From a virus: DNA of 47,767 nucleotides. The position numbers and the translations under genes were made by a program. How positions within the stretch are numbered: the first letter of the stretch is position 1; every line of letters begins with the position of its first letter. The stretch is from positions 1 to 47,767 of the IMG/VR virus record IMGVR_UViG_3300043099_000911. The stretch is one strand, 5' to 3'. A model generated the notes under the pieces. The model saw only the letters and a program-made list of their open reading frames with translations. It had not been told where the DNA came from and did no database searches. Below are positions 4,668 through 29,241 of this stretch, one piece after another.

Positions 4668-6554
4668 TTACGATCCACTATTTTGCGTTATAGGCTTCCA
4701 TCCGCTTGTCGGGCCTGTTAATCCAAATGTCTCGCCGCGGGCCAAAGTCGGCACGAAACTGCTGCCAGCTGTATCGCTAACGCCGCCGCGATGCGTTGCG
4801 TTAAGTAGGCTTTTCTGCTGATATGACCCCATCATACGTGTCATCCAGTCAGGATCTGTTGACGCGCTCGCCATGCCACGGATCATTTCTGGTTCGAACG
4901 GCGGCGGTTCTTTATGCGCCTCAATGTTTTTAATGCCGTACTTCTCTAGATTGCCGATAACCGATTTTCCGATTCTTGTGCCGATTGAATAATGCAGCAC
5001 AGGCCGTTCAAGATAGTGTCCGACCATGCTCTTTGGCGCGCCCTGCACGCTACCAGCTCGCGGCTGCCAGCTGCGCTCAAGCATGTTGTAGGGCACAACA
5101 TCGTCCGGTACGTAATCGCCGTACTCGCCGGTTAAACGCACATGATTGATTAAACCGCGCGATAACAGCTCAATGTTACGCCGGTGTGCGGTTATTCCGC
5201 TATTTTTCAGCACCTGCCGCATTGCGCTGACAAAATATCGACGGCCCTCGCCGACGCCCTTGTGGCGAACAATTTCTCCGGGGTTTGGCATACCCTCGGA
5301 TATAACATCGCCGGCTTCTAGTTCGTCTCCGCGCTTAACGCTAAGCGGCACATCTGTCGGCACATAATGTTCTCGGCTGTTAACAACGACATAATGCCCA
5401 CCCTGCGGCGCTTGTCGTATTTCTTGTACAACGCCGTCTACTTGCGAATGCGTAGCGCCGTTTGGATATTTTTCTGGCACCTGCACCAGCGCGTTTAGCG
5501 CCTTAAAGCCGGCGATTGCGCCAGCACCGCCTACGCCGCCAGAATGCTTTGAACTAATTTGACTTTGTGTTACAGGTTCTGCCAATGCTTGCGCGGCAGC
5601 GATCCCGACGTAGTCGCCAATGGGCGGCATTCTGTTTTTCTCGCGAATGCCGACGTCGCGTGAAAATACGCCGCCGTCGCTCGGGCCGCCCACCGTAGGG
5701 CTGCGTACAAGGATGTCTTTAACGCCCATGCCCTTGATGTCTTTAAGGATCTTTGGCGTCAAAATCGTATTGCGCTTATACGGCCCAACTGCGCGCGCCA
5801 AAAGCGCACCTTCGTTGTCCTCGTCGTCAACATCCGACGGAAATCCGCGCGTATCTGCGTCTTGACTGTCATCGTCGTCATCGGCTGTAACAAGCAGCCG
5901 ATGGTTCATTTGCGTAAGCTGTTTTGCAAAAAAACCGGCATCCGATGTAGCCGTCTTTAAATCGATCAGACCTTTACGCGTACCAAACGCTCCTGCAAAG
6001 TACTCTACCGGGCGCAGTCCCTGGCCATAGCCGCGCAGAACCGGAATCGGAATCGGCTCGTTACGATGATCGACGTACTGCATGTCAGAGCCAATAATGC
6101 TGTTTAACTGAAATTTGTTGCCTTTCACTCCGGAATAAACTTGGTGAAACAGCGGGTTGTCACTTGATTCGGCTTCGTTGTACACGGAGTCGATGAGGTC
6201 TTTTTGCGCCTGTGACGTAATCTCCAGAATTTTCATGTTGCGCTGTTTATCAGACAAATTTCGATTAGCGAGTACGGAGCGCAACTGCTGTCGAATTTCA
6301 TTCTGCTTTTTTCGCGCGGATATGGTGGCAGCCACGGCGTCTAGACCAACGGACAAACCGCCCGTCGTGTAAGAAGTTTCAGCGCCAATATCCTGCAAAT
6401 CTTTCATGACCTCGCGGTATTTGTCTGGATACCGTTTAGCGAGATCTGTAGCTAGACCGGTTATGTTCTTCTTCGTCAGCACGCGGTTGTAATCGCGCAT
6501 GTCTGGCGGAAGCGCATTGTTGATCAGCAGCTGGCCTAGCGTAGTTTTTAGCAT
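4668..6554 (-). CDS. RNA polymerase beta' subunit, C-terminal half (RpoC2-like)
   Basis: 628 residues matching the rear half of bacterial beta'. It opens with TTLGQLLINNALP (equivalent of TTVGRALL...LP), then GLSVGLDAV near residue 66 (equivalent of GISIGIDD). The bridge-helix region follows (PLFHQVYSGVKGNKFQLNSI, ~134-153) and then the trigger-loop region (GLRPVEYFAGAFGTRKGL and DAGFFAKQL, ~179-212). Next come an Asp-rich insertion (~224-246), GIAAAQALAEPVTQSQIS (~317-334) and a C-terminal part that includes SGITAHRRNIELLSRGL. The four cysteines of the second beta' zinc site are absent; I see no cysteine in the protein. Together with the fused gene at 7519-11967 it should form the catalytic core. 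The split point is like that between cyanobacterial rpoC1 and rpoC2. Confidence 0.93.
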   Translation of the reverse strand: MLKTTLGQLLINNALPPDMRDYNRVLTKKNITGLATDLAKRYPDKYREVMKDLQDIGAETSYTTGGLSVGLDAVAATISARKKQNEIRQQLRSVLANRNLSDKQRNMKILEITSQAQKDLIDSVYNEAESSDNPLFHQVYSGVKGNKFQLNSIIGSDMQYVDHRNEPIPIPVLRGYGQGLRPVEYFAGAFGTRKGLIDLKTATSDAGFFAKQLTQMNHRLLVTADDDDDSQDADTRGFPSDVDDEDNEGALLARAVGPYKRNTILTPKILKDIKGMGVKDILVRSPTVGGPSDGGVFSRDVGIREKNRMPPIGDYVGIAAAQALAEPVTQSQISSKHSGGVGGAGAIAGFKALNALVQVPEKYPNGATHSQVDGVVQEIRQAPQGGHYVVVNSREHYVPTDVPLSVKRGDELEAGDVISEGMPNPGEIVRHKGVGEGRRYFVSAMRQVLKNSGITAHRRNIELLSRGLINHVRLTGEYGDYVPDDVVPYNMLERSWQPRAGSVQGAPKSMVGHYLERPVLHYSIGTRIGKSVIGNLEKYGIKNIEAHKEPPPFEPEMIRGMASASTDPDWMTRMMGSYQQKSLLNATHRGGVSDTAGSSFVPTLARGETFGLTGPTSGWKPITQNSGS

Positions 6555-7518: not shown

Positions 7519-10500
7519 TTAATCATTTTCCACAATATGCACCGGCGTGTCGACCTCAATTTCGCCGCGGCGATACGCTGCGATAGCGTCCGCGGATGTT
7601 TTGTACACGCGCGCGGGCGATTTCTTATTCACTCGGTTTGACGCTACGTACAGCCCAGAGTGCAGCTCAGCTACCGGTGTAAAATGCGCTTTAAACGACG
7701 CCGCCGCAAATAAATTCTTACTGGGCAGCATTTTTTCTACTGCTTCTTTAGCCGCGGAATCAGTGCTGGGCACATGAAACTGCATGGCATCGCCGTCGAA
7801 ATCCGCTCCGAAACCTTTAGTCACAAGCGGACTTACTTCCATTGTTTTATTTTTCGTCAATTTCGGGTAGAACGCCATCATACCGTAGCGATGTAAAACT
7901 GGCGCGCGGTTGATTATGATCGGGCGCGAATCTAGCTGGTTTAGCAGCTCAGCCCGCGCAGCCTGGCTCTTACTGTCAAACGCGTTAATCGCTTCCATTC
8001 TCGGAAGGCCGCGCCGAACAAGTCCCCGCACGATAAACGGCTTGTAAATCTCCCAAGCTTTTTCTTCGGGCAGCGCGACGTGATCCATATCTAAATCGGC
8101 GTTCGGTGTGATCACTGCGCGACCTACTAAGTCCACTGTGGAGCTCAACAGCTTACGCTGCACAGTGCCATACTTCGGCGAGCTTCCAAAAATTTGCGAC
8201 AAAAAGCCGCGGACACGGCGCTCGACGTTTTTAGCTTGTACTGGGTCGCCAAGCCCGGTAACGCTTTTCATCGCGTCGTAAAGCCCTAGCCGCTCGTCAC
8301 CGACATCGTCTAACACACCGCTTGAGTCTTTTAATGCGCTATTTGCGTCGAGTAGTTCTTTGTACAAGTAGTTAGCGTCGGCAACTAGTGGTAACTTTTT
8401 CTGCCCCATAGTCGACACGGGACGAAACGCCGGCGGAATAACTGGCATCTTAGACAGCATCCAATTTTCTGGGTGAACACCAGTCTTTTCAGCAGTCTTT
8501 AAAAACGCTAAGCGGCGAACAGCAGCATCGCGCATCGTTTTACGGCCAGATTTGATATCCTCGCGCGCCTGCTCAATTGCCTTGGGTACGTTAATCCGGC
8601 TGAGCGCTGTCTTAATTGCCGCCGGGCCTGTTTGGTCGCCCAATTTTTCACGACCAGCGAGTACAGCACGAAACGTCTTTTCGGTTAACCCAAGTGTGCG
8701 CCGGATGGGTTCTTCCATTACGGGATTAGGCATTGATTCGTGCAGCGTAACTTTCGACCAGCGGTTGCCGTTATGCCCGCCAGTCAATGTTTCGTCGAAT
8801 AACCCGCCTGACTTCGGCCGTAAGCCGCCCTTCCAATCGACTGTTTCTGCATTTTGAATTTCGCGGTCGCCGGCAAGTTCATCGATGTCTTTATCCGTTA
8901 ATGCCATGATGTGCGTTTTGGTGCCTTGCCGCACAGTGTTAATTCCGGCACCGCGCAACTGCTCCACAAACTTACTGTAAACTTGCGGAATTTTTGGCAG
9001 CGGCGGCGAATACCCAGCCATGAACTGCGACCAATACTCCGGATTCGCCTGCCCCCGCACCATCTTGGCGTCACGAATAACTTGACCGGCGCCGTGCGAT
9101 AACAAAGCGCCGAGATCGAGCATGCCGACGCGTTTCGCGCCTTCGACGCCGCCTTTCGCCGGAGCGCCCTCAGCGGTATACCCGCCTGTAGACCGCCCCT
9201 GCGCCTTACTTTCGCTGGTGTGGTGTAGCTTCATAAAGAAGCGATTACCCGTCAACACGCCGCGTATTTTGCGGCCAGTAGTTGGGTCAGTTACGTCTTC
9301 TAAATCTTGCAGTTGATTTTTACGTAATTCGTCTTTTGCAAACTGTATGAGATCCTTAGCGCTGTCAAAGTCTTTTATCTTGTAGGGTTGGCCTGTCTTC
9401 TCTGCCACCTTACCCAGCGCGGCCTCCACAAGCTGTGACGGATTAATGCGGCTGGCTAAACCAAGCGGACTAACCAAAACCTCTAACGGCCGGCCTTGCT
9501 TGTCCTGCGGCATTTCGTCGTCAGCGATAATTTGAGCGACTACGCCCTTATCTCCGAAACGTCCCGTAAGCTTGTCGCCGACTTCCATCGGTGCTTGATT
9601 TTTCACAACAACGCTGAAACCGTTTTTTGTTTTTGCGACGTCTGTAACTACGCCGGGCGCATGATGCTCCCACGTAACTGAATTATTTGTGAAATTTGCA
9701 GACTTGCCGCGAAACACCTGACCGTATGTCGTCTCGCGTGCTTGGCTAACAAGGATTAGCGGATCGCCGTAATTTACTGTTGCGCCCTTTTTAATCACGC
9801 CGTTGTCGTCGAAATTGCTTAGCAGTTTTTTGTCATACTCGCCGGGAAACAAGCTGATAAATTTCTTTTTGTCGATGTGCGTATTGTCGTCGGCTTCTGC
9901 TTCGTGCTGGTACATGTGCTCAGAAGTCAGCCGCTTAGCCGCCGATTCCGACAGCACAATTGAATCGTCGTATACAGCGCCGCGGAACGGTAAATAGCCA
10001 ACGCGCATATTTAGGCCGAGCGCCGCAGTCCCCTTGTCGTCTGTGAAATTAGACCGCGCCAACAATTGCCCGGGTTTTACTGTGTCGCCCGGCTGCACAA
10101 GTGGTGTTTGCGTCCAGAACGTTTTGCGATTAAATGGCGCGTCGTTATACAGATCGATTGAGCGCTTATCGCCATTCTTGTCGCGTAAGATAATCTCATC
10201 TGGCGTTACAGCCACAACTTGAGCTACAGCATCTGCCCGGATAGCGCCGAGGCTTGTGCCCATATCATCTTCATATGACTTGTTTACGTCTTCAGCCATC
10301 GCGGACTGAATAAACGGCGCTTCTGGTTTAGTTAGCGGAAGCGCTTGCGTAAACATGCGGCTGCCCATGATTACGCGATGCCCCTTCATCATCGACTTCA
10401 GCGGTACCATGTTGCCAAGAGTCGAGAAAGACGCGTCCATACTCGGCAGCATGTATTCCGCCTTTTCGCGCGGAATGTAGGTCATCTTGCCGTTAACAAT

Positions 10501-11967
10501 TGCAGCCACCGCCGGCAAATCGCTCTCCTCTTCTCCCGGAAATACAATCGGGATGTCCGCTATTTCTTGCGGCGATTTGTATTCCAGTTTGCCAGTTTTC
10601 AGATTTTTGACTTGCGTGTAAATTTTGCCGTCGGCGCCCTTTACAGCACCGCGGGCAAATCGCATATCGACGCCGACTTTTCCGCTCTCTGGTGTGCGCA
10701 GATAATCAATAAAACCGAAATGGCTCGGCTGCACGCTGCGGCTTTCTACCGGCACTGCGTCAAGACTACCGATACCGCCCTCGCCAAGTCTGGTGACGCG
10801 CGTTTGGTGATCGAAAATTTCAGCCGGATTAATTTCTTCAAGGCTTGAGCCAAGCCCGCTGCCAATCAGCGCCGCAGTAATAGCTTTGTTGAACGCGCCG
10901 GTAGGAATGTGATCAAGTGTTTTTTTAGCCGTCGCTTTCCACAAAAGCTGCCTGACCATTGCGCGATCTTTTGTAAACCGCTCAGCGATCAAATCTTCCG
11001 GCCCGAATACCTGCTGAAACGCCATGCTGTCGCGGTCGTCTGTGTCGACCTCTTTACGATTTACAGCAATCAGCTTTTTTGTGATCTTCAGAATAGCGTC
11101 AGGCGTCAAGTTCTTTAGCGGCTCGCCGAGCGTGCGTTTTGTTACTTCTGGATCCATCTCCATTTTCGCAAACTCTTCGGCGATTGCGCGCTGCTTGCCG
11201 TCTGCGTCCAGCCCGGCCACAGGTTTGTAGACAAGACGGTTATAGAGTTTGTCTAATGTGCCGGCATCACCTTTGGCCATATTAACCGCGGTCAGCTCAT
11301 TGCCCCACGCCGATCGAATGTCCTGCTCCGACACCCCGACTGCTTTGAGTAGCGGCATGAGCGGAATTTGCGCCTGCCCGATGTTGATTTTAAATACACC
11401 GGTTTTTGGATCTAGATAATATCGATGCATGCGGCCTTTGCCGGGCAGCACATTTACATGCGCCTCGAGCTCGCCGTTGTCTTTCTCGCGCGTGTATACG
11501 CCAGGACGAAGACGCAATTGATGCGCTAGCGTATACTCAACGCCGTTGTGCACAAATGTGCCGGCGTCTGTCATGTACGGCACATTGGCCAGCGTCGCGC
11601 GGCGATTGGCGATCACTTCGCCGCTCTTATTGTCTGTCAGCTGCCAGGTACCGCGTAGTTTTCTCGCGAGGCTGCCGTGAGACAACACGGCCTGCTTATG
11701 GTCTTTTTTTGTAAACCGCTCTGGGCCTTCGTAGCCGACGTCGCTAATCGACAGCGTATACAGATCATTTTGAACTGGCTTTATCTGCTGCGCCTGTTGC
11801 GCAACAGTATCAAAAATGCCTTTGCGCGTAACCTCCGGCCGGAACGGCGCGACAGTTGCCGCAGACTGTTGCGACTGCTGGAAAATATTCTGGCGCAATG
11901 CGCCAATGTCGCCAAACGGTCTAGTTTGCGAACCGAGAATCGAATTTGACGATTCGGGTGTCGGCAT
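7519..11967 (-). CDS. RNA polymerase beta subunit fused to N-terminal half of beta' (RpoB-RpoC1-like)
   Basis: 1482 residues, GAGGTG ribosome binding site. The beta part (~1-1020) shows VPYMTDAGTFVHNGVEYTL, HFGFIDYLRTPESGKVGVD (equivalent of [20 protein letters not shown]), GDKLTGRFGDKG (797-808), and the beta C-terminal region LSHGAGQVIRDAK. From ~1022 it continues as beta': GGLFDETLTGG, WMLSKMPVIPPAFRP, LSSTVDLVGRAVITP, IIINRAPVLHRYGMMAF, and the catalytic metal site GADFDGDAM with DFDGD at 1389-1393. It ends ~90 residues later at AYRRGEIEVDTPVHI. Three Asp residues of the active site are present. No cysteine is seen, so the beta' N-terminal zinc finger is missing. It is probably a viral polymerase; no alpha, omega or sigma gene was recognised in the window. 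Confidence 0.95.
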   Translation of the reverse strand: MPTPESSNSILGSQTRPFGDIGALRQNIFQQSQQSAATVAPFRPEVTRKGIFDTVAQQAQQIKPVQNDLYTLSISDVGYEGPERFTKKDHKQAVLSHGSLARKLRGTWQLTDNKSGEVIANRRATLANVPYMTDAGTFVHNGVEYTLAHQLRLRPGVYTREKDNGELEAHVNVLPGKGRMHRYYLDPKTGVFKINIGQAQIPLMPLLKAVGVSEQDIRSAWGNELTAVNMAKGDAGTLDKLYNRLVYKPVAGLDADGKQRAIAEEFAKMEMDPEVTKRTLGEPLKNLTPDAILKITKKLIAVNRKEVDTDDRDSMAFQQVFGPEDLIAERFTKDRAMVRQLLWKATAKKTLDHIPTGAFNKAITAALIGSGLGSSLEEINPAEIFDHQTRVTRLGEGGIGSLDAVPVESRSVQPSHFGFIDYLRTPESGKVGVDMRFARGAVKGADGKIYTQVKNLKTGKLEYKSPQEIADIPIVFPGEEESDLPAVAAIVNGKMTYIPREKAEYMLPSMDASFSTLGNMVPLKSMMKGHRVIMGSRMFTQALPLTKPEAPFIQSAMAEDVNKSYEDDMGTSLGAIRADAVAQVVAVTPDEIILRDKNGDKRSIDLYNDAPFNRKTFWTQTPLVQPGDTVKPGQLLARSNFTDDKGTAALGLNMRVGYLPFRGAVYDDSIVLSESAAKRLTSEHMYQHEAEADDNTHIDKKKFISLFPGEYDKKLLSNFDDNGVIKKGATVNYGDPLILVSQARETTYGQVFRGKSANFTNNSVTWEHHAPGVVTDVAKTKNGFSVVVKNQAPMEVGDKLTGRFGDKGVVAQIIADDEMPQDKQGRPLEVLVSPLGLASRINPSQLVEAALGKVAEKTGQPYKIKDFDSAKDLIQFAKDELRKNQLQDLEDVTDPTTGRKIRGVLTGNRFFMKLHHTSESKAQGRSTGGYTAEGAPAKGGVEGAKRVGMLDLGALLSHGAGQVIRDAKMVRGQANPEYWSQFMAGYSPPLPKIPQVYSKFVEQLRGAGINTVRQGTKTHIMALTDKDIDELAGDREIQNAETVDWKGGLRPKSGGLFDETLTGGHNGNRWSKVTLHESMPNPVMEEPIRRTLGLTEKTFRAVLAGREKLGDQTGPAAIKTALSRINVPKAIEQAREDIKSGRKTMRDAAVRRLAFLKTAEKTGVHPENWMLSKMPVIPPAFRPVSTMGQKKLPLVADANYLYKELLDANSALKDSSGVLDDVGDERLGLYDAMKSVTGLGDPVQAKNVERRVRGFLSQIFGSSPKYGTVQRKLLSSTVDLVGRAVITPNADLDMDHVALPEEKAWEIYKPFIVRGLVRRGLPRMEAINAFDSKSQAARAELLNQLDSRPIIINRAPVLHRYGMMAFYPKLTKNKTMEVSPLVTKGFGADFDGDAMQFHVPSTDSAAKEAVEKMLPSKNLFAAASFKAHFTPVAELHSGLYVASNRVNKKSPARVYKTSADAIAAYRRGEIEVDTPVHIVEND

Positions 11968-16287: not shown

Positions 16288-17103
16288 TCAGAATTGCGGC
16301 ACAAGCATATATGGACGCCCGTTAATCACAAGAGTGCCATGCACCTGCACCGTGTCTTTTCCGCCGGGTTTTGTTAGTTTTTTCCGCTTACCGTAAAGCG
16401 CCGCCATCTCGGCGATGTCGCCCTTTTGCGGCGTACTTACGTTCGGGTCGTAATATGGCGCCATCAGGTTACCTTTACCTAAATGCGCCAAACCGAGGGC
16501 GTGCCCGAGTTCGTGGCAAATTACGGCCACCGCCATATCGAATGTCCACTCTTCCGCCTCGTCAAACATCTGATCAAGCTGCATGTTTTGAGTCACGCCG
16601 CACGGCAATTCGCTCCAAGCAAGTGTGCCACCGCGGTCGTCTAAACTGTCGGCTTTGCCCTTGCCCGATCTCGCAAAAATGTTCGCGGTGCTTGGACTGT
16701 CTACGCGAATTGGATCGATGTTGCAGACCGCGGACCACTGCTCAAACGCCATGTCGTACGCTTGATTAGTTTGAGACTCAGAAATTCCGGGCAACGTAAG
16801 TTTTGAGTAATACGTAATTTGCGACATCGGCCATTTGCATGGTTGATCGCGGCCGGAAATATTGAAATCAGGTAACCCGCAACGGCGGCGAGCCATGACG
16901 TGCGCAGTACGCGGACCGACTACGCCGGTCTGCTCTAATCCGTTAAAAATCTGATACTGCCTAATCGCGGCTTCTAACGCCTTACCGCTAGTTTTTTTAA
17001 CCTGAGACCATTTTTGATCGCCGAAATATCCGAGCGTCTGCAGTTTACGCAAAATCTCGACCACTGGCATTACGTGATGTGGTGCCGGAGCTGCTTTAGC
17101 CAT
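16288..17103 (-). CDS. Matrixin-like (M10) metallopeptidase with N-terminal peptidoglycan-binding-like domain
   Basis: 271 residues with GGAGG six bases before the ATG. Residues ~10-72 form a PG_binding_1-like helical domain (LRKLQTLGYFGDQ, AAIRQYQIFNGLEQTGVVG). Then comes RRRCGLPDF with Cys75, resembling the cysteine switch PRCGxPD of matrix metalloproteinases. The catalytic domain has the zinc signature HELGHALGLAH (197-207) and a Met-turn in NLMAPYYD (213-219). This order is that of family M10A zymogens. The enzyme should cleave proteins extracellularly; activation would require releasing Cys75 from zinc. No signal peptide is visible. It may be virion-borne or exported after lysis and could degrade host surface protein. 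Confidence 0.9.
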   Translation of the reverse strand: MAKAAPAPHHVMPVVEILRKLQTLGYFGDQKWSQVKKTSGKALEAAIRQYQIFNGLEQTGVVGPRTAHVMARRRCGLPDFNISGRDQPCKWPMSQITYYSKLTLPGISESQTNQAYDMAFEQWSAVCNIDPIRVDSPSTANIFARSGKGKADSLDDRGGTLAWSELPCGVTQNMQLDQMFDEAEEWTFDMAVAVICHELGHALGLAHLGKGNLMAPYYDPNVSTPQKGDIAEMAALYGKRKKLTKPGGKDTVQVHGTLVINGRPYMLVPQF

Positions 17104-20722: not shown

Positions 20723-20734
20723 AGGCAATCCAGA

Positions 20735-20806
20735 CTGCTCGAGTAGGACTCGAACCTACAACCCCAGCATTAACAGTGCCGTGCACTACCATTGTGCTAT
20801 CGAGCA
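20735..20806 (-). tRNA. tRNA-Asn (anticodon GTT)
   Basis: On the minus strand the 72-nt sequence folds into a full cloverleaf: a 7-bp acceptor stem TGCTCGA/TCGAGCA, a D arm with AATGGTA, an anticodon stem CGGCA/TGCTG around loop CTGTTAA (anticodon GTT), and a T arm GTAGG/CCTAC with loop TTCGAGT. The discriminator base is G and CCA is not encoded. It is nested tightly between the stop of a small gene (20808) and the start of the 2H-like gene. Confidence 0.95.
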
Positions 20807-20807
20807 A

Positions 20808-20984
20808 TTATTTACGAGGGGCGCTAATCTCCGCGGATTGCGTTACTGGCTCCGGGGCTGCCGAGGCGGCCGAGGCGGTCACGTGCTGAACGGCAGCTAA
20901 CGCAGAAAATCGCAAAAGAATCGAACAGACAAATGAGCCAAAAATTGCCGCCCAGCTAAGAGTTTTTCGCATCTTTGCTGTCAT
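20808..20984 (-). CDS. Small membrane or exported protein
   Basis: 58 residues from the ATG at 20982-20984, preceded by GGAG nine bases upstream; a longer in-frame version starts at 21047. It begins MTAKMRKTLSWAAIFGSF, a positively charged start plus hydrophobic segment (signal peptide or membrane anchor), then an Ala/Ser/Glu-rich tail. It overlaps the holin-like gene by 29 bases in a different frame. Overlap of a small exported protein with a holin-like gene recalls lysis cassettes (Rz1-type), but no lipobox is evident, so the role is speculative. Confidence 0.5.
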   Translation of the reverse strand: MTAKMRKTLSWAAIFGSFVCSILLRFSALAAVQHVTASAASAAPEPVTQSAEISAPRK

Positions 20985-21321
20985 TTCTGTAGTCTCCGTC
21001 GCGATCCCGTTCGTGCGTGATTTTGACACTAATGCCGGCACCAGCAATTACTGATATTAACAAATCACTGAGCGTGGAACCACCCATGCCGGCCAGTACG
21101 CAAATTCCGAGCAAACCAGACACATTTTCAGATTTTAAGTAGTTCTGGTACCAGATAAGCGCGATAGCGAGCCCTAAAAACCCAGCGTTTAACATAGCGC
21201 TTATTACAGAAAGCCAGGAAAGCCGCTTTGCGAAGCGTAAAAGCGTCGCTAGGCCGGCGAAAGCAGACACGCCAAAAGCACTGGCGAATACAGATAGCGA
21301 ATGAAAATATTCGTCTAACAC
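20956..21321 (-). CDS. Holin-like membrane protein
   Basis: 121 residues with three to four hydrophobic segments (VFASAFGVSAFAGLATLLRF; LSVISAMLNAGFLGLAIALI; VSGLLGICVLAGMGGSTLSD; LISVIAGAGISV) and a charged C-terminus (THERDRDGDYRNDSKD). Size, topology and the motif GICVLAGMGGSTLSDLL resemble phage holins of the LydA/superfamily-III type. It precedes a small exported protein that overlaps it, which fits a lysis cassette, although no obvious endolysin is adjacent. A structured RNA candidate lies directly upstream in its likely leader. Confidence 0.6.
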   Translation of the reverse strand: MLDEYFHSLSVFASAFGVSAFAGLATLLRFAKRLSWLSVISAMLNAGFLGLAIALIWYQNYLKSENVSGLLGICVLAGMGGSTLSDLLISVIAGAGISVKITHERDRDGDYRNDSKDAKNS

Positions 21322-21340: not shown

Positions 21341-21581
21341 GGTTACTTGCTAATTGTCGTAAGCCCCTGTGATCCCCTCCCACAGGTCCAAACCCCGGCG
21401 AACCGGGGCATTGCAATGACTTTCTAGGGTGTAAACTCAACCCCGTGCGGCATTCATTGCTCCACCTACCGTGTGCGCGGCCATAGCCTGACCACGGATT
21501 CCTGTCAAAACGCCTTGCATCCCTGCGCAGCGTTTTGCTTCCCTAACCAGTCGGCCACCACGACTAACTTACGACGTAACC
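21341..21581 (-). ncRNA. Candidate structured noncoding RNA (about 241 nt, six-hairpin wheel)
   Basis: No credible ORF fills the 294-bp gap at 21322-21615. On the minus strand its ends pair over ~200 nt: 21576-21581 with 21341-21346 (6 bp) and 21568-21575 with 21356-21363 (8 bp). Inside, six hairpins follow in order without crossing: 21549-21553/21561-21565, 21506-21513/21530-21537 (8 bp), 21469-21473/21493-21497, 21413-21419/21454-21460 (7 bp), 21393-21398/21403-21408 (6 bp, TTCG loop) and 21366-21371/21381-21386 (6 bp). A U-G pair inside the 21469-21497 arm supports the minus strand. I recognise no Rfam family. It could be a free ncRNA or a structured leader of the holin-like gene. Confidence 0.75.
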
Positions 21582-21615
21582 AATTTTACCAGTAAGAAAA
21601 GTTGGGCTGAAATTC

Positions 21616-22617
21616 TTACAGAATTTTCGCGGCAATTAAGCAGCCGCGAGCAACAGCATGAAGAGGATCTGCGGCGTGCCGCACAGTTTTAACGGGTAAC
21701 GGAAAGCCCGCTTCTTTGAGTTTTTTAGCGAATAACGGTACAAAACCGTTCGCCTGAGATGTGCCACCGCCGACAGCAATAACAAGCGGCTCTTTGAATT
21801 TAGGTAATAGTTTGTGCCCAGTTAACGCGGCAGACAGTTGCTTGGCCGTGTACTCAATTAACCTGTCGTAGTACGACGAAACAGCGCCAAGAATCGGATT
21901 ATCATTCGGCTCGCCCACTGTAAACTGCCCGTGCTCTTTTTCGGCCTGGACTACCGAGTCTGGCTCGGAAGTTGCCACGGCCGCCATGCGATCTACCCAG
22001 TCGCCGGACTTGGTAGTCGAAAATGTTACAGTCGGTTCACCGTTTAGCATTACGCAAACGTTTACCATACCCGCGCCAAATGACAGGCCGACACCGGTAT
22101 AGTCGTCATTTTCAAACTCCGAGTAGCACAGCGCCTCGGCTTCGTTAATCGCGCGCGGGACGTAGCCAGCCTCAGACAGGATGAGCTTTACTACGTCTTC
22201 GTGGTACCCGACGTCAAAATCGTCGTCGGTTTGATCAACAGGCTGCGCCGGAATACAAAACACGATTTTCTCGCTAGGAACAGCCGGGCCGCAAACTTCG
22301 CGCAGAATGAATGCAAGCACGCGTTTTGCGTCCTTTTCTTTCGGCGATACGACGCCGCGGTACATAGGGCGCTTGGCCGAGTCGTTGCGTTCAACGGCCT
22401 TTTCGATAGCGTCCTGACCCAGCAGAATAAACGCGCCAGATTCGTCCTTAACAAAAACACGGCCAGCCAACCCCTTCTCGATCATCTTTGTCGCGACGGG
22501 CGTAGTCGGCTTGATGACGTAAAATGCATCACGAAAGTCTTTGTATTCGACTTTGCCGTGTTCGCCGTCTTTGGCCATAACAACAAAAGATGTACCAACG
22601 TCTAGGCCTTTTGCCAT
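21616..22617 (-). CDS. Actin/Hsp70-fold ATPase (ParM/MreB-like)
   Basis: 333 residues, AAAGGA upstream of the ATG. The actin-superfamily nucleotide-binding motifs are present: phosphate-1 GLDVGTSFV at residues 4-12, phosphate-2-like GVGLSFGAGMVNV around 175, and the adenosine motif VIAVGGGTSQANGF around 290. SLIPAxP-like text occurs as FCIPAQPVDQ, and NEAEALCYSE matches the conserved connect-1 region. Members polymerise into filaments (plasmid segregation, cell shape) or act as chaperones. In a phage, DNA segregation or positioning of a replication centre is plausible. The membrane-anchored gene two bases upstream may be its partner. Related bacterial proteins of this length are uncharacterised. 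Confidence 0.85.
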   Translation of the reverse strand: MAKGLDVGTSFVVMAKDGEHGKVEYKDFRDAFYVIKPTTPVATKMIEKGLAGRVFVKDESGAFILLGQDAIEKAVERNDSAKRPMYRGVVSPKEKDAKRVLAFILREVCGPAVPSEKIVFCIPAQPVDQTDDDFDVGYHEDVVKLILSEAGYVPRAINEAEALCYSEFENDDYTGVGLSFGAGMVNVCVMLNGEPTVTFSTTKSGDWVDRMAAVATSEPDSVVQAEKEHGQFTVGEPNDNPILGAVSSYYDRLIEYTAKQLSAALTGHKLLPKFKEPLVIAVGGGTSQANGFVPLFAKKLKEAGFPLPVKTVRHAADPLHAVARGCLIAAKIL

Positions 22618-25158: not shown

Positions 25159-26790
25159 TCACGCGCCGGCAGGATTACGAAGATGAAAATTGCCCATATT
25201 ATTTGCTTGAGACATATGTCCGTAATCCCAATCAGCAAAACGCAACTGCCTAAATTCATCCCAGCGAGCCTGGTCATGATACTCGCCAAGAATAAACCCA
25301 ACACGCGATATGTCGCAATTTCCAAGAATTGAATACTCACTACCTTCGCAGTCTAGTTTCAACAAATCAATTGTTGTGAAATTAAATCGCGCGGCTAACT
25401 GCTCTAGCGTAACTTTTTGCAGCGGCCGTTTGTCGGGCCAGTACTCGCCGACCGCGCGCGCAAGCACGGCATCCGCCGAGACGACTATAGACCCGCCAGT
25501 ACTAACGCAGTCTGGCCGAACAGCATTACATAACGCCAATTCGCCAGGCTCATAGCTACACGCAGCGTGCACAATTTCGGCGAAGTCGCCGACGTTGGCG
25601 CGGAGAGCATCGATATTTTCTGGACAAGCTTCGACGCATATAATTTTTGCGTTTGGATTTTTTTCGCGCACGAGCTTCGCGAATGTGCCGATGTGCGCGC
25701 CGATATCGACGACGACGCGAGCGCGGCCAATAACCTGCGGAATAATAGCTGTTTTGTAACAGTCATTTAAATACACGTCTTCAACAATTGTCAAATCTTG
25801 ATTGATGTTATTTCGCCGAACCATAAAGCTATGCGCGTTAATTAGCTCGTTATTTTGCACAGTTGGCAGCTCCTTTTTAGTTAACGCGGCAGCAAGCGCG
25901 ATAATATCCACGGCGAGCGGCGCGTCCGTACGCATTTGATATCTGTAATGCTGGTTAAACACAGAAATTTGCTGAGGTGTCATTTCTGCCAGTGCATGAT
26001 CTGGCACTAAATGCGTTACGTTGTCTGCAAAATCGTAGTACCGGATCGGCGTGTGCCCCGTCCACAAACCTATAGCCGGCGTTGTTGTAGCGCCGGCTAC
26101 ATGCAGCGGCCCGGAATCAATGCCGACAAATAAACTAGCTCGAGATATTAGCGCAGCAATTAATGCGGCGTCGCCAGTGCCCTGATTTTGCCACATCGAA
26201 TGCGACGCGTTCGGGCAAAACACGGTAACGTTATCAGCAAGCGGTGTGCGATTATCCCAGTCAAAAATTACAGGCACTAAACCAGCTGCTTGAAACGACT
26301 GACAAATTAGCGCAATAACAGAATGCGGTAAATTTTTTTTATCGATTGCCGTATTGCCTTGGTAGTGAATGCACACAACCGGCCATCGTCCATTAATTGG
26401 GTCTCTTCCGGTTATTTGTCGAAAATAATCATCAGCGATGTCTGCGGCGGTTGCCGACGGCAAAATTGAGTAGAAAAACAACTCCGGATCCGGCGTGATA
26501 CCGAATACCTCCTCAATACAACGCGCCGCCTTTGTAGACGGGACATTTTCAAAACTGCGGTCGCATTCATGCCAGTGAATATCCGCAATTTTGTCATACG
26601 TCTCTTCCGGAATTTGCTGTTCGCGCTCCGAAAAGGATCGGGCGCATAAGCCGTGCATTGCCGAGTGTTTGCCATAAAGACTTTGCACGTAGACAGTCCA
26701 TTCGGGCCGGTAGCGCTGCAGGTGCCGCAAAATAATGGTTAACTGCACGGCGTCGCCCAGGCCGTGCGTAAATTTTAACAATACACGCAT
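25159..26790 (-). CDS. GT9 glycosyltransferase fused to FkbM methyltransferase
   Basis: 543 residues from the ATG at 26788-26790. The N-terminal ~310 residues are GT9-like: KFTHGLGDAVQLTIILRHLQ at the start and GIDSGPLHVAGATTTPAIGL in the C-terminal lobe. After a linker the C-terminal ~220 residues form an FkbM-type SAM-dependent methyltransferase: VVVDIGAHIGTFAKLV, IICVEACPENIDALRANV, and DLLKLDCEGSEYSILG. The protein could transfer a sugar and methylate it, or methylate a neighbouring hydroxyl. I do not recall this fusion as common. It would act on LPS-like or virion-surface glycans. A separate FkbM gene lies at 37.3 kb. Confidence 0.88.
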   Translation of the reverse strand: MRVLLKFTHGLGDAVQLTIILRHLQRYRPEWTVYVQSLYGKHSAMHGLCARSFSEREQQIPEETYDKIADIHWHECDRSFENVPSTKAARCIEEVFGITPDPELFFYSILPSATAADIADDYFRQITGRDPINGRWPVVCIHYQGNTAIDKKNLPHSVIALICQSFQAAGLVPVIFDWDNRTPLADNVTVFCPNASHSMWQNQGTGDAALIAALISRASLFVGIDSGPLHVAGATTTPAIGLWTGHTPIRYYDFADNVTHLVPDHALAEMTPQQISVFNQHYRYQMRTDAPLAVDIIALAAALTKKELPTVQNNELINAHSFMVRRNNINQDLTIVEDVYLNDCYKTAIIPQVIGRARVVVDIGAHIGTFAKLVREKNPNAKIICVEACPENIDALRANVGDFAEIVHAACSYEPGELALCNAVRPDCVSTGGSIVVSADAVLARAVGEYWPDKRPLQKVTLEQLAARFNFTTIDLLKLDCEGSEYSILGNCDISRVGFILGEYHDQARWDEFRQLRFADWDYGHMSQANNMGNFHLRNPAGA

Positions 26791-26808
26791 TGTCACACCT
26801 GTTTTACG

Positions 26809-27393
26809 TTAACCTAGCTCTACTATACTGCCGGTAAAAATAAAATGCCACAAAAACTCAAGCACAAGACCCGCCTCGTATGACGACAGCTCGGTGTCGC
26901 GCACCCACTCGCGCAGCTGTTCGTACACCGATTTTGCATGGCGCAGAATTGCATGACGGCTAACATAAAACTGCGCGCAACAATTACAGCGCAGATTTGC
27001 AACGTCAATGCTAGCGCCCAGAATAGCTTCCAGCGCCGCACGTTCTTTTGTGACAAAACCGCACGCCCACGAATGCTCGGGTTGCGTGATTATCCTCGTG
27101 TCGTTTAAGTTGCGATAATCTGAGTCGAACTTAACTGCCCGCAAAACCTCGTCTATGTTGCTGCGCGCATGCCAAGCAGATCTGTGCGCGTGCAAGCAAA
27201 CTACGTAGTCCGGCAAGTTATCGTAGTTTGCTATTAGCCATTCTAAGTAAGCGCTGGCTTCCCGGCCTTTATTCGGCCAGTCTTCGGGAGCCATTCCGGC
27301 GCGTGAAATTACGGTATACGGAAACGGTAAAAGCTCTGTCCACGCCAAGTCTTCACTATGGTGCGCCAGTACTACATGCGCGCTAACATCCAT
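26809..27393 (-). CDS. DUF3431-family protein (glycosyltransferase-like)
   Basis: 194 residues starting MDVSAHVVLAHHSEDLAWTE. The features of DUF3431 are present in order: the VxxHxEDLxWxxLL start, NKGREASAYLEWLIANYDNL, VVCLHAHRSAWH, and a C-terminal Arg/Cys-rich half (LRCNCCAQFYVSR). Members are predicted glycosyltransferase-related enzymes of unsettled specificity. Position inside a glycosyltransferase block supports a role in glycan assembly. No signal peptide or membrane segment is seen. Confidence 0.75.
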   Translation of the reverse strand: MDVSAHVVLAHHSEDLAWTELLPFPYTVISRAGMAPEDWPNKGREASAYLEWLIANYDNLPDYVVCLHAHRSAWHARSNIDEVLRAVKFDSDYRNLNDTRIITQPEHSWACGFVTKERAALEAILGASIDVANLRCNCCAQFYVSRHAILRHAKSVYEQLREWVRDTELSSYEAGLVLEFLWHFIFTGSIVELG

Positions 27394-27413
27394 AGGTCAC
27401 CGCAAACCTGTCG

Positions 27414-28145
27414 TTAAAATTGCTCAATGTACGGATTCGTAAGCTCGACGGCTGACCAGTCAACCAGCGGTAAACCGCGTAGCGCACGGACGCGATTCAG
27501 ATCAATCTCTTTTTCTTTTTTTGAGCGACAACATGTTGCGTGATGCATAATCATCCGGCTGTCTTTTGGATCTACCATGTTATACATGAACATGCTGCAG
27601 CTATTGGCAAATACATTTGGATCCAACAACCGGTATGCGATCGCGTGCTCGCGCAAGTACGAGTTAAATACATCCTGATCGCCGTGATAGTGCTGAGAAA
27701 AATCTGTGTTTAGTATTGCATCAAACATCTGCGCCGTTTGCGGAGTGTGCTTGACTAAGAAAAATCCTGAGTTTATGTCGCCGGTCGCTTCGCCTGGAAC
27801 GAAGTCACTGGCTTTCTCTGCCATTGCAGCCAAGACCGCGTCAGATGCTTCAAGCAACGTTTTTGTCGCATACACCGCCGCCGCGTCAAAAATCTGAATA
27901 TCAACATCCGCTAAGCCAACCACTGTGCCGACAGGCAGCTCGCGCATACGCGCCGAAACAAACTCAATTTTTTTTCGCAGCATGTGATACCACAGCGGCG
28001 TTCGAAAATCGCCCGTGCCAGGAGCGGTGGCGTGAGCTGCGAGCACGCACACACGAATTTGCGGATGCGCAAGTGTTGAAATCGCGTGATAAGCCATACT
28101 CTGAAAGTTAGGCGTGTAGGTCATGTAAATCGGCAGCGTGGCCAT
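27414..28145 (-). CDS. Nucleotide-diphospho-sugar transferase (PF03407-like)
   Basis: 243 residues from the ATG at 28143-28145; an upstream in-frame extension uses TTG and overlaps the mutase gene. A DxD metal/nucleotide-sugar site is in VVGLADVDIQIF, followed by GDINSGFFLVKHTPQTAQMF and YHGDQDVFNSYLR, the NSGxxxxK and GDQDxxN motifs of nucleotide-diphospho-sugar transferases (GT-A fold). A final His-containing motif MIMHHATCC could complete the metal site. The donor and acceptor are unknown. It follows the UDP-galactopyranose mutase gene, so UDP-galactofuranose is one possible donor, by inference. Confidence 0.8.
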   Translation of the reverse strand: MATLPIYMTYTPNFQSMAYHAISTLAHPQIRVCVLAAHATAPGTGDFRTPLWYHMLRKKIEFVSARMRELPVGTVVGLADVDIQIFDAAAVYATKTLLEASDAVLAAMAEKASDFVPGEATGDINSGFFLVKHTPQTAQMFDAILNTDFSQHYHGDQDVFNSYLREHAIAYRLLDPNVFANSCSMFMYNMVDPKDSRMIMHHATCCRSKKEKEIDLNRVRALRGLPLVDWSAVELTNPYIEQF

Positions 28146-28152
28146 AGAATGC

Positions 28153-29241
28153 TCATTTGCTATTTTCAAAAATGGTCAAAGCGCTACCAATAACTTGGTG
28201 CATATCGTAATATCGATACTCCGCCAAGCGGCCGCCAAACACGTATCTGGTTTCTTGCTGCGCGCGTTTTGAGTACTGCGCGTATCGTGCGGTGTTCTGG
28301 GCGTCGTTAATTGGATAGTACGGCGTTTCGCCTTCGGCCCACGTTGTCGGATACTCACGTGTAATGTACGTGTTGTCCGTTTGCGCGCCGGTAAAATGCT
28401 TGTGCTCAATAATTCGCGTGTACGGCACAAGTTCTGAAGTGTAATTGATTATTGCATTTCCCTGAAAATCAGATATCGGCAAATTTTCGTGCTCAAACCG
28501 CAATGACCTGTAATCCAACTCGCCGTGCTTGTACTCATAAAACTCGTCAACGCGGCCAGTAAAAACTGTCTTGTGCGCCATTGCGTCCCAATGGTCGCGT
28601 TTTTCTAGGTAGTCGTGCCCGAGCAAAATATCGGCGCCCGCGAGCATGTTGCCGATCAGCGCGGTATAGCCTTTTACAGGAATACCCTGATAGCGATCAG
28701 TGAAATAGTTGTCGTCGTAGTTCAGCCGGATGGGCAAGCGTTTGATAATTGCCGCGGGTAAATCTTTTGGATCGCGCTGCCATTGCTTGAGCGTATAACC
28801 GCGAATAAACGTCTCATACAGCTCTTTGCCGACTTGCGACAGCGCCCACTCCTCTAAATTTTGTGGGTTAGCAATCGGCAGCCGAGCCAACTCAAGTTTT
28901 CGCCGCGCTTCTTCAGGAGTTCGAACGCCCCACAACTGATAGAGCGTAAACAGGTTAATCGGAAACGAGTAAATCATGTCGGAATGATTTACTTTTGGGC
29001 GGTTCACAAAACTACTGAACTCGCCGAACTGCCGCACGTAATCCCAAATCTTGTCACTGTTCGTGTGAAAGATGTGCGGCCCGTAGACGTGCGCCTCTAT
29101 CCCGTGGCGCTGCTCGGTGTAGCAATTGCCGGCAATGTGCTCGCGGCGGTCTATTACTAGAACCTTTTTACCGCGAGACATTGCCCGCTCGGCAAACACG
29201 GCGCCAAATAAGCCAGCGCCGACGATTAAATAATCGTACAT
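28153..29241 (-). CDS. glf: UDP-galactopyranose mutase
   Basis: 362 residues, within the usual length of the family. The N-terminal FAD-binding motif is DYLIVGAGLFGAVFAERA with a following KKVLVIDRREHIAGN. Hallmarks of the mutase follow: GIEAHVYGPHIFHTNSDKIW, YSFPINLFTLYQLWG, GYTLKQWQRDPKDLPA and YYPINDAQN. A conserved arginine lies in VFGGRLAEYRYYDMHQVIG. The enzyme converts UDP-galactopyranose to UDP-galactofuranose, a sugar not made by most animals and used in bacterial LPS/O-antigen and capsule. Carriage in a phage suggests that glycans on the virion or host surface incorporate galactofuranose. No upstream Shine-Dalgarno is obvious. Confidence 0.96.
   Translation of the reverse strand: MYDYLIVGAGLFGAVFAERAMSRGKKVLVIDRREHIAGNCYTEQRHGIEAHVYGPHIFHTNSDKIWDYVRQFGEFSSFVNRPKVNHSDMIYSFPINLFTLYQLWGVRTPEEARRKLELARLPIANPQNLEEWALSQVGKELYETFIRGYTLKQWQRDPKDLPAAIIKRLPIRLNYDDNYFTDRYQGIPVKGYTALIGNMLAGADILLGHDYLEKRDHWDAMAHKTVFTGRVDEFYEYKHGELDYRSLRFEHENLPISDFQGNAIINYTSELVPYTRIIEHKHFTGAQTDNTYITREYPTTWAEGETPYYPINDAQNTARYAQYSKRAQQETRYVFGGRLAEYRYYDMHQVIGSALTIFENSK

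Follow-up and report, generated by a model that had tools for sequence, protein, structure and literature searches.

The mRNA leaders bound by CsrA/RsmA (glgC, pgaA, moaA and ymdA) carry a hairpin for which SELEX gave the consensus RUACARGGAUGU, mostly with six-nucleotide loops closed by AC/GU, and for the CsrA/RsmE recognition hairpin NMR gave ANGGAN (PMC7652899). In the CsrB/RsmX/Y/Z sponges this type of loop motif is repeated at many sites. In phages, the ornate RNAs GOLLD and ROOL are large, conserved and structured, contain a pseudoknot and are of unknown function (PMC12286853), and csrA has been published for 30 of 2,517 phages (1.2%) in a 2020 study that did not assign a role to the gene (PMC7366521). 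BoxA, for which a gamma-proteobacterial consensus, GYTCTTTAANA, is available (PMC5725501), is a hallmark of long non-coding transcripts, and CRISPR arrays are one of its known settings (PMC7862264). The non-coding RNAs of jumbo phages have been left almost unexplored.

The RNA described here resembles the CsrA/RsmA-bound leaders in its 5' position and in an ANGGAN hexaloop of the SELEX/NMR type, but its fold is far larger, rigidly conserved and pseudoknotted, its target would be a phage holin-like gene, and binding has not been shown. With GOLLD and ROOL it shares the character of a large conserved structured phage RNA with a pseudoknot; unlike them it measures about 235 nt and not >600-800 nt, has no sequence or model match to either, adjoins a holin-like gene and not a conserved tRNA island, and was found in a single jumbo-phage group only. 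It differs from the sponges in having one invariant site, not many, and complex conserved junctions. It has a boxA-like motif upstream at many loci, as have the antiterminated rRNA and CRISPR transcripts, although it is the short leader of a protein gene and the motif is missing in the clade of the sequence analysed here.

The window, the whole stretch of 47,767 nucleotides (47.8 kb) of virus record IMGVR_UViG_3300043099_000911, is jumbo-phage DNA that carries genes for a multisubunit RNA polymerase of its own and for Volactin. The conserved RNA lies on the minus strand at ~21351-21580 (~230-235 nt), in the 294-nt gap between the Volactin gene and a gene for a 121-aa membrane protein; apart from the RNA, this gap is gene-free, as the initial annotation had it. 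The features are, in window coordinates:

21345-21585, minus strand: whole conserved RNA (alignment A1); covariance model R1 matches 21347-21585 with 209 bits, cmsearch E 4.7e-65
21566-21580 with 21351-21365, minus strand: P1, closing helix; 13 of 15 pairs covary
21549-21565, minus strand: P2, hairpin AGUCG[UGGUGGC]CGACU with a conserved loop; 100% paired, 4 of 5 pairs covary
21506-21537, minus strand: P3, variable stem, 8 of 8 pairs covary; conserved tip GC[AGGGAU]GC, loop at 21519-21524
21469-21497, minus strand: P4, hairpin CCGUG/CACGG, 100% paired; loop GGUCAG...GYCG conserved, with the 3-bp P4a inside
21413-21460, minus strand: P5, 6 of 6 pairs covary; internal loop RAAURYCRCAC / UYGAAAGUY
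21440-21444 with 21426-21430, minus strand: P5a, nested in P5; 4 of 5 pairs covary
21393-21407, minus strand: P6, variable hairpin, 6 of 6 pairs covary; UUCG loop in the window
21366-21386, minus strand: P7, hairpin, 99.6% paired, 4 of 6 pairs covary; loop GGAGGGGAU conserved
21554-21558 with 21447-21451, minus strand: PK1, pseudoknot of 5 bp between GUGGC in the P2 loop and GCCGC in the P5 internal loop
21583-21591, minus strand: TGGTAAAAT, resembling an extended -10 element, immediately 5' of P1; promoter role inferred
20956-21321, minus strand: 121-aa holin-like protein whose GTG start lies about 25 nt past the RNA; three helices predicted
20808-20984, minus strand: 58-aa ORF following the holin-like gene, with a single hydrophobic stretch (ORF comparison)

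Homologues were gathered from IMG/VR relatives of both flanking genes, among which 45 distinct intergenic sequences share a conserved block of ~235 nt, and 42 distinct sequences with a mean identity of about 68% were aligned (A1). The structure counted comprises P1, the hairpins P2-P7, the nested P5a and PK1, with 63 pairs and 2,630 pair cells. Standard pairs fill 96.3% of these cells, and changes on both sides with retention of pairing are found at 51 of the 63 pairs (537 compensatory cells). The covariation score of 0.582 was reached in 0 of 500 shuffles (0.278) and compares with 0.11-0.16 in controls in which the partners were slid, where pairing falls to 37-45%; RNAalifold recovers the same nested fold without guidance. 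The six hairpins inside a closing helix that the initial annotation had drawn from a single sequence (P2-P7) are all supported by this covariation.

The minus-strand fold energy is −95.8 kcal/mol (z = −3.15, with 0 of 200 shuffles as good), which agrees with the earlier view that such dense pairing is unlikely by chance. Both strands beat their shuffles, with z = −4.34 for the plus strand, so that folding energy alone cannot decide the strand; the decision for the minus strand, also the one first claimed, rests on the covariation asymmetry, since only 85.0% of cells would be standard pairs if the plus strand were the RNA. In principle there might be no RNA here but a DNA element, a diverged gene or merely folding by chance, in that both strands fold better than shuffles; the compensatory cells, the strand asymmetry and the loss of support when partners are slid all speak against it, and one-base length changes scattered through loops and stems rule out that a reading frame is conserved inside the element, so that we give this alternative practically no weight. 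None of the outcomes named as refuting the structured RNA (no covariation in homologues, a folding energy equal to that of shuffled sequences, a conserved protein in the gap) has materialised. We regard it as near certain that this is a new structured RNA family, while its function is inferred. A GGAGG...AUG in J4/5-P5 resembles a start site and was rejected, the AUG being AUA in many relatives.

Inspection of the individual helices shows which parts of the fold belong to the family. The inner ten pairs of P1 (GUCGUAAGUU/GGCUUACGAC) are kept as pairs and the outer five only partly (83-93%). Of the two perfectly pairing blocks of 6 and 8 bp from which the closing helix had been proposed, the inner one, GTCGTAAG/CTTACGAC, is the core of the conserved P1, whereas the outer one, GGTTAC/GTAACC, is private to the window's sequence in the alignment and stands outside the family fold. 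The hairpin annotated earlier with a TTCG loop corresponds to P6 and has covariation support; in the alignment its loop varies freely, as does the stem of P3. Outside P3, by comparison, the unpaired bases GGUUAG, GGUCAG, RAAU..CAC, GAAAGU and GGGGAUC are invariant. P5a and PK1 were absent from the earlier fold. PK1 is paired in 100% of the 42 sequences, with double changes at three of its five pairs (GUGGC/GCCAC, GCGGU/ACCGC and GUGAC/GUCAC occur as variants), and it is the only 5-bp match among 2,028 windows of unpaired columns; further pseudoknots sought in the same windows amounted to nothing beyond PK1 and the 3-bp P4a.

About 80 viral contigs from ~200-kb jumbo-phage genomes carry the RNA, in 47 distinct sequences. 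When 2.9 million viral contigs were scanned for a motif, 83 stretches matched, and at the 80 loci scanned with R1 the scores were 112-248 bits, so that all 80 of the 80 viral loci found by pattern are true members; viral contigs were scanned again with a different, independent pattern, which brought no further true members. In large phage records R1 finds one copy in 17 of 21 and none in the remainder. Among 85,000 bacterial and archaeal species genomes there were 105 motif loci, and in the 80 that were scanned with the model the best score was 17 bits over 28 nt; these hits are due to chance, and as only such fragments appear there, no copy in a host or prophage came to light. When 50,697 phage records were searched with the RNA by BLAST, only chance matches resulted. 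The holin-like protein had 0 matches in the same records and Volactin only two remote ones (34-35% identity), in huge-phage records of 485 and 595 kb, from which it follows that no cultured relative is known and that, as far as this collection goes, the RNA occurs in no cultured phage. Searches against the 4227 families of Rfam, at gathering and at permissive thresholds, matched only the tRNA in the window. The family is well proven and absent from Rfam. The suggestion of a tRNA-island RNA akin to GOLLD is not borne out, given the lack of an Rfam match and a conserved neighbour that is the holin-like gene and not a tRNA. The tRNA-Asn remarked on as nearby does exist, at 20733-20807, ~540 nt away behind two ORFs, but several relatives (L007, L014 and L024) have no such tRNA near the RNA, and it is not conserved.

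In all 80 of 80 loci found by a holin-like protein profile, the RNA stands 12-50 nt upstream of the holin-like gene on the same strand, and a separate count has the two together in 63 of 63. Because this downstream gene is constant while the genes upstream of the RNA differ among phages, the RNA is best seen as the 5' leader of the holin-like gene and not as a relative of GOLLD or ROOL, with the caveat that constant linkage would also be expected if the RNA were merely co-transcribed with the gene. In favour of a leader, a scan of the window shows no intrinsic terminator between RNA and gene; counting against it, no conserved Shine-Dalgarno sequestration was seen. The protein has 112-131 aa across relatives and three helices in an AF2 model of low confidence (pLDDT 56, too poor for a fold search). 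PHROG 6384, annotated as holin, is matched by 21 of 25 members at E <= 1 (best 9.8e-5), remotely by the window's own protein (E 0.31); members also match PHROG 785, and Pfam holins give E 0.5-2 only. The 58-aa ORF that follows has no family match, and a similar small ORF follows the gene in L027, L021 and L024. In one clade a PAS-domain protein takes this place (L019:10800-11456 and L215:7957-8589), with a small one-helix ORF elsewhere. In L137 (4588-4937) a stop or frameshift interrupts the holin-like gene, through a sequencing error or a real lesion; in L118 and L149 the gene is intact.

Signals upstream of the RNA bear on whether it acts in cis at all. A TGNTAAAMT-like motif is found directly 5' of P1 in 39 of 47 distinct loci, at the distance from P1 expected of a -10 element. 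A boxA-like GYTCTTTGACAA (<=1 mismatch), judged against a consensus of the GYTCTTTRAMA type, occurs upstream in 31 of 47 loci against 0.02 expected, 43-83 nt away (mostly 54-72), in most cases with a hairpin after it that varies in sequence from phage to phage (mean z −2.1); the motif is nearly absent elsewhere in the same genomes, and in the window's own clade the signal is not present. From the -10-like motif and from the boxA/hairpin two different 5' ends can be deduced, and the choice between them is unresolved. Besides a leader, such signals would suit a trans-acting structural or regulatory RNA, similar in kind to GOLLD, ROOL or OLE, that has its own promoter, is processed from the holin transcript and enters an RNP or RNA assembly, its linkage to the gene reflecting co-expression only. 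Its loops and junctions are conserved far beyond a simple leader, the -10-like motif sits exactly at its 5' end, the closing helix is long, as in processed RNAs, and boxA is typical of long non-coding transcripts. The complete linkage to the holin-like gene and the lack of an intervening terminator in the window nevertheless weigh against it, and the RNA is far smaller than GOLLD or ROOL and without an Rfam match; we consider a trans-acting RNA rather unlikely. The TTGACA of the boxA-like motif was considered as a -35 element and rejected, as its spacing to the -10-like motif varies and is far from 17. In Thermomonas flagellata (L352:341-1514) the boxA-like 16-mer of the phages, GTTCTTTGACAATTTG, occurs identically and once in the genome; it points into a CRISPR array of 18 repeats that begins 32 nt further on, a setting known for boxA. 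In one clade (L168, L174, L192, L197 and L230) a further hairpin, with a tip similar to GCGAAAGC, lies on the RNA's strand between the -10-like motif and P1.

The tip of P3 is C-ANGGAN-G in 46 of the 47 distinct sequences, 45 of which read CANGGAUG. Its loops AGGGAU, AUGGAU and AUGGAA change only at the two N positions, those at which CsrA accepts different bases, and a single RNA (L408) has lost the GGA. The tip thus looks like a CsrA/RsmE-type recognition hairpin, a likeness of sequence for which there are no binding or expression data; the P7 loop is a possible second, weaker CsrA site, inferred from reading the loop. An invariant site of this high-affinity type could also serve a sponge like CsrB or RsmZ that titrates host CsrA, and the best Rfam score other than the tRNA is in fact rsmX (17.1 bits, E 0.49). 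This score is far under the cut-off of 56, however, and GGA motifs are not clearly enriched, with 6.2 per RNA against 4.9 in shuffles and 1.3 against 1.0 for ANGGA, where sponges would have many sites; a sponge appears highly improbable.

The P3 motif was noticed first and csrA was searched for afterwards. The gene (PF02599) is found in 15 of 24 phage records and in one more, and by comparison of positions it is present in 16 of the 18 RNA-bearing records that cover the syntenic place, ~73-79 kb from the RNA, against the published 1.2% of phages in general; the window is too short to reach this place. By sequence, the gene products appear to be normal CsrA (MLVLSRK..., VRIGIEAP and a conserved arginine after strand 5). 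No csrA was detected in G019 and G057, which belong to one clade and keep the P3 site, and a repeat search of them also found none. RNA-less relatives of 244 and 197 kb are without csrA and without a holin-like gene of the same family. On the Volactin tree, joint absence of all three (RNA, holin-like gene, csrA) is limited to one clade and possibly one more branch; with so few independent contrasts, at one or two phylogenetic places, the co-occurrence of RNA and csrA is statistically weak, and their association is consistent but not statistically strong.

Taken together, we favour, at about an even chance, a CsrA-responsive structured leader that times holin expression in these ~200-kb phages. 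Observed are the fold with its pseudoknot, the minus strand, the single copy, the position, the lack of a terminator in the window and the ANGGAN tip; the mechanism built on them is inferred. Transcription would start at or shortly before P1, or, in the relatives that bear boxA, upstream of the boxA-like site, which may keep the untranslated stretch safe from Rho, and it would read through from the RNA into the holin-like gene so that both are co-transcribed. A CsrA dimer, made by the phage or by the host, could then dock on the P3 hairpin and perhaps bridge it to the P7 loop, although no binding data support this. Docking may act on the holin message through its translation, its stability or its elongation, and in this way would help to set the time of lysis.

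The single-stranded conservation of the RNA far exceeds the needs of a CsrA site. As CsrA alone leaves the large rigid fold and the invariant unpaired bases unexplained, a second input beside it, ligand or protein, is likely. The same properties could point to a leader of the riboswitch type, which would control the holin-like gene in response to a small molecule or ion, with the P3 tip incidental or secondary: the junction-rich fold, the pseudoknot and the invariant unpaired bases are those of aptamers, the position is 5' of the gene, and CsrA has a precedent for acting on a riboswitch-like leader, that of moaA (PMC7652899). Yet no known riboswitch family matches and no expression platform is seen, be it a terminator or a helix that sequesters the Shine-Dalgarno sequence, which makes a riboswitch with no essential part for CsrA improbable. 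Returning to the CsrA-responsive leader, its furthest extension, a class of junction-rich pseudoknotted RNAs that integrates CsrA with a second signal and decides the lysis time of jumbo phages (a "lysis clock"), is a possibility that we raise only tentatively. The proposed connection of a CsrA encoded by the phage with a structured leader and, through it, with a holin-like gene can be tested directly; if it is true, a large regulatory RNA would here govern when lysis occurs, which is rare, and there would be a hint as to why phages have csrA genes.

Other genes of the window, all on the minus strand, were also inspected. About 4 kb beyond the holin-like gene, a 271-aa protein (16288-17103) combines a peptidoglycan-binding domain with a matrixin-type metalloprotease and is possibly a lysis or tail enzyme. 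The actin-like Volactin homologue (21616-22617) matches PF25216 with E 1e-61 and is 73-80% identical across most of the group. The RNA polymerase genes lie at 7519-11967 and 4668-6554; beta-like (Rpb2) and beta'-like (Rpb1) parts are fused in one protein of 1482 aa, and the second gene encodes Rpb1 domain 5. A sugar-modification cluster at 25159-29241 encodes a glycosyltransferase/FkbM methyltransferase, a DUF3431 protein, a nucleotide-sugar transferase and a UDP-galactopyranose mutase.
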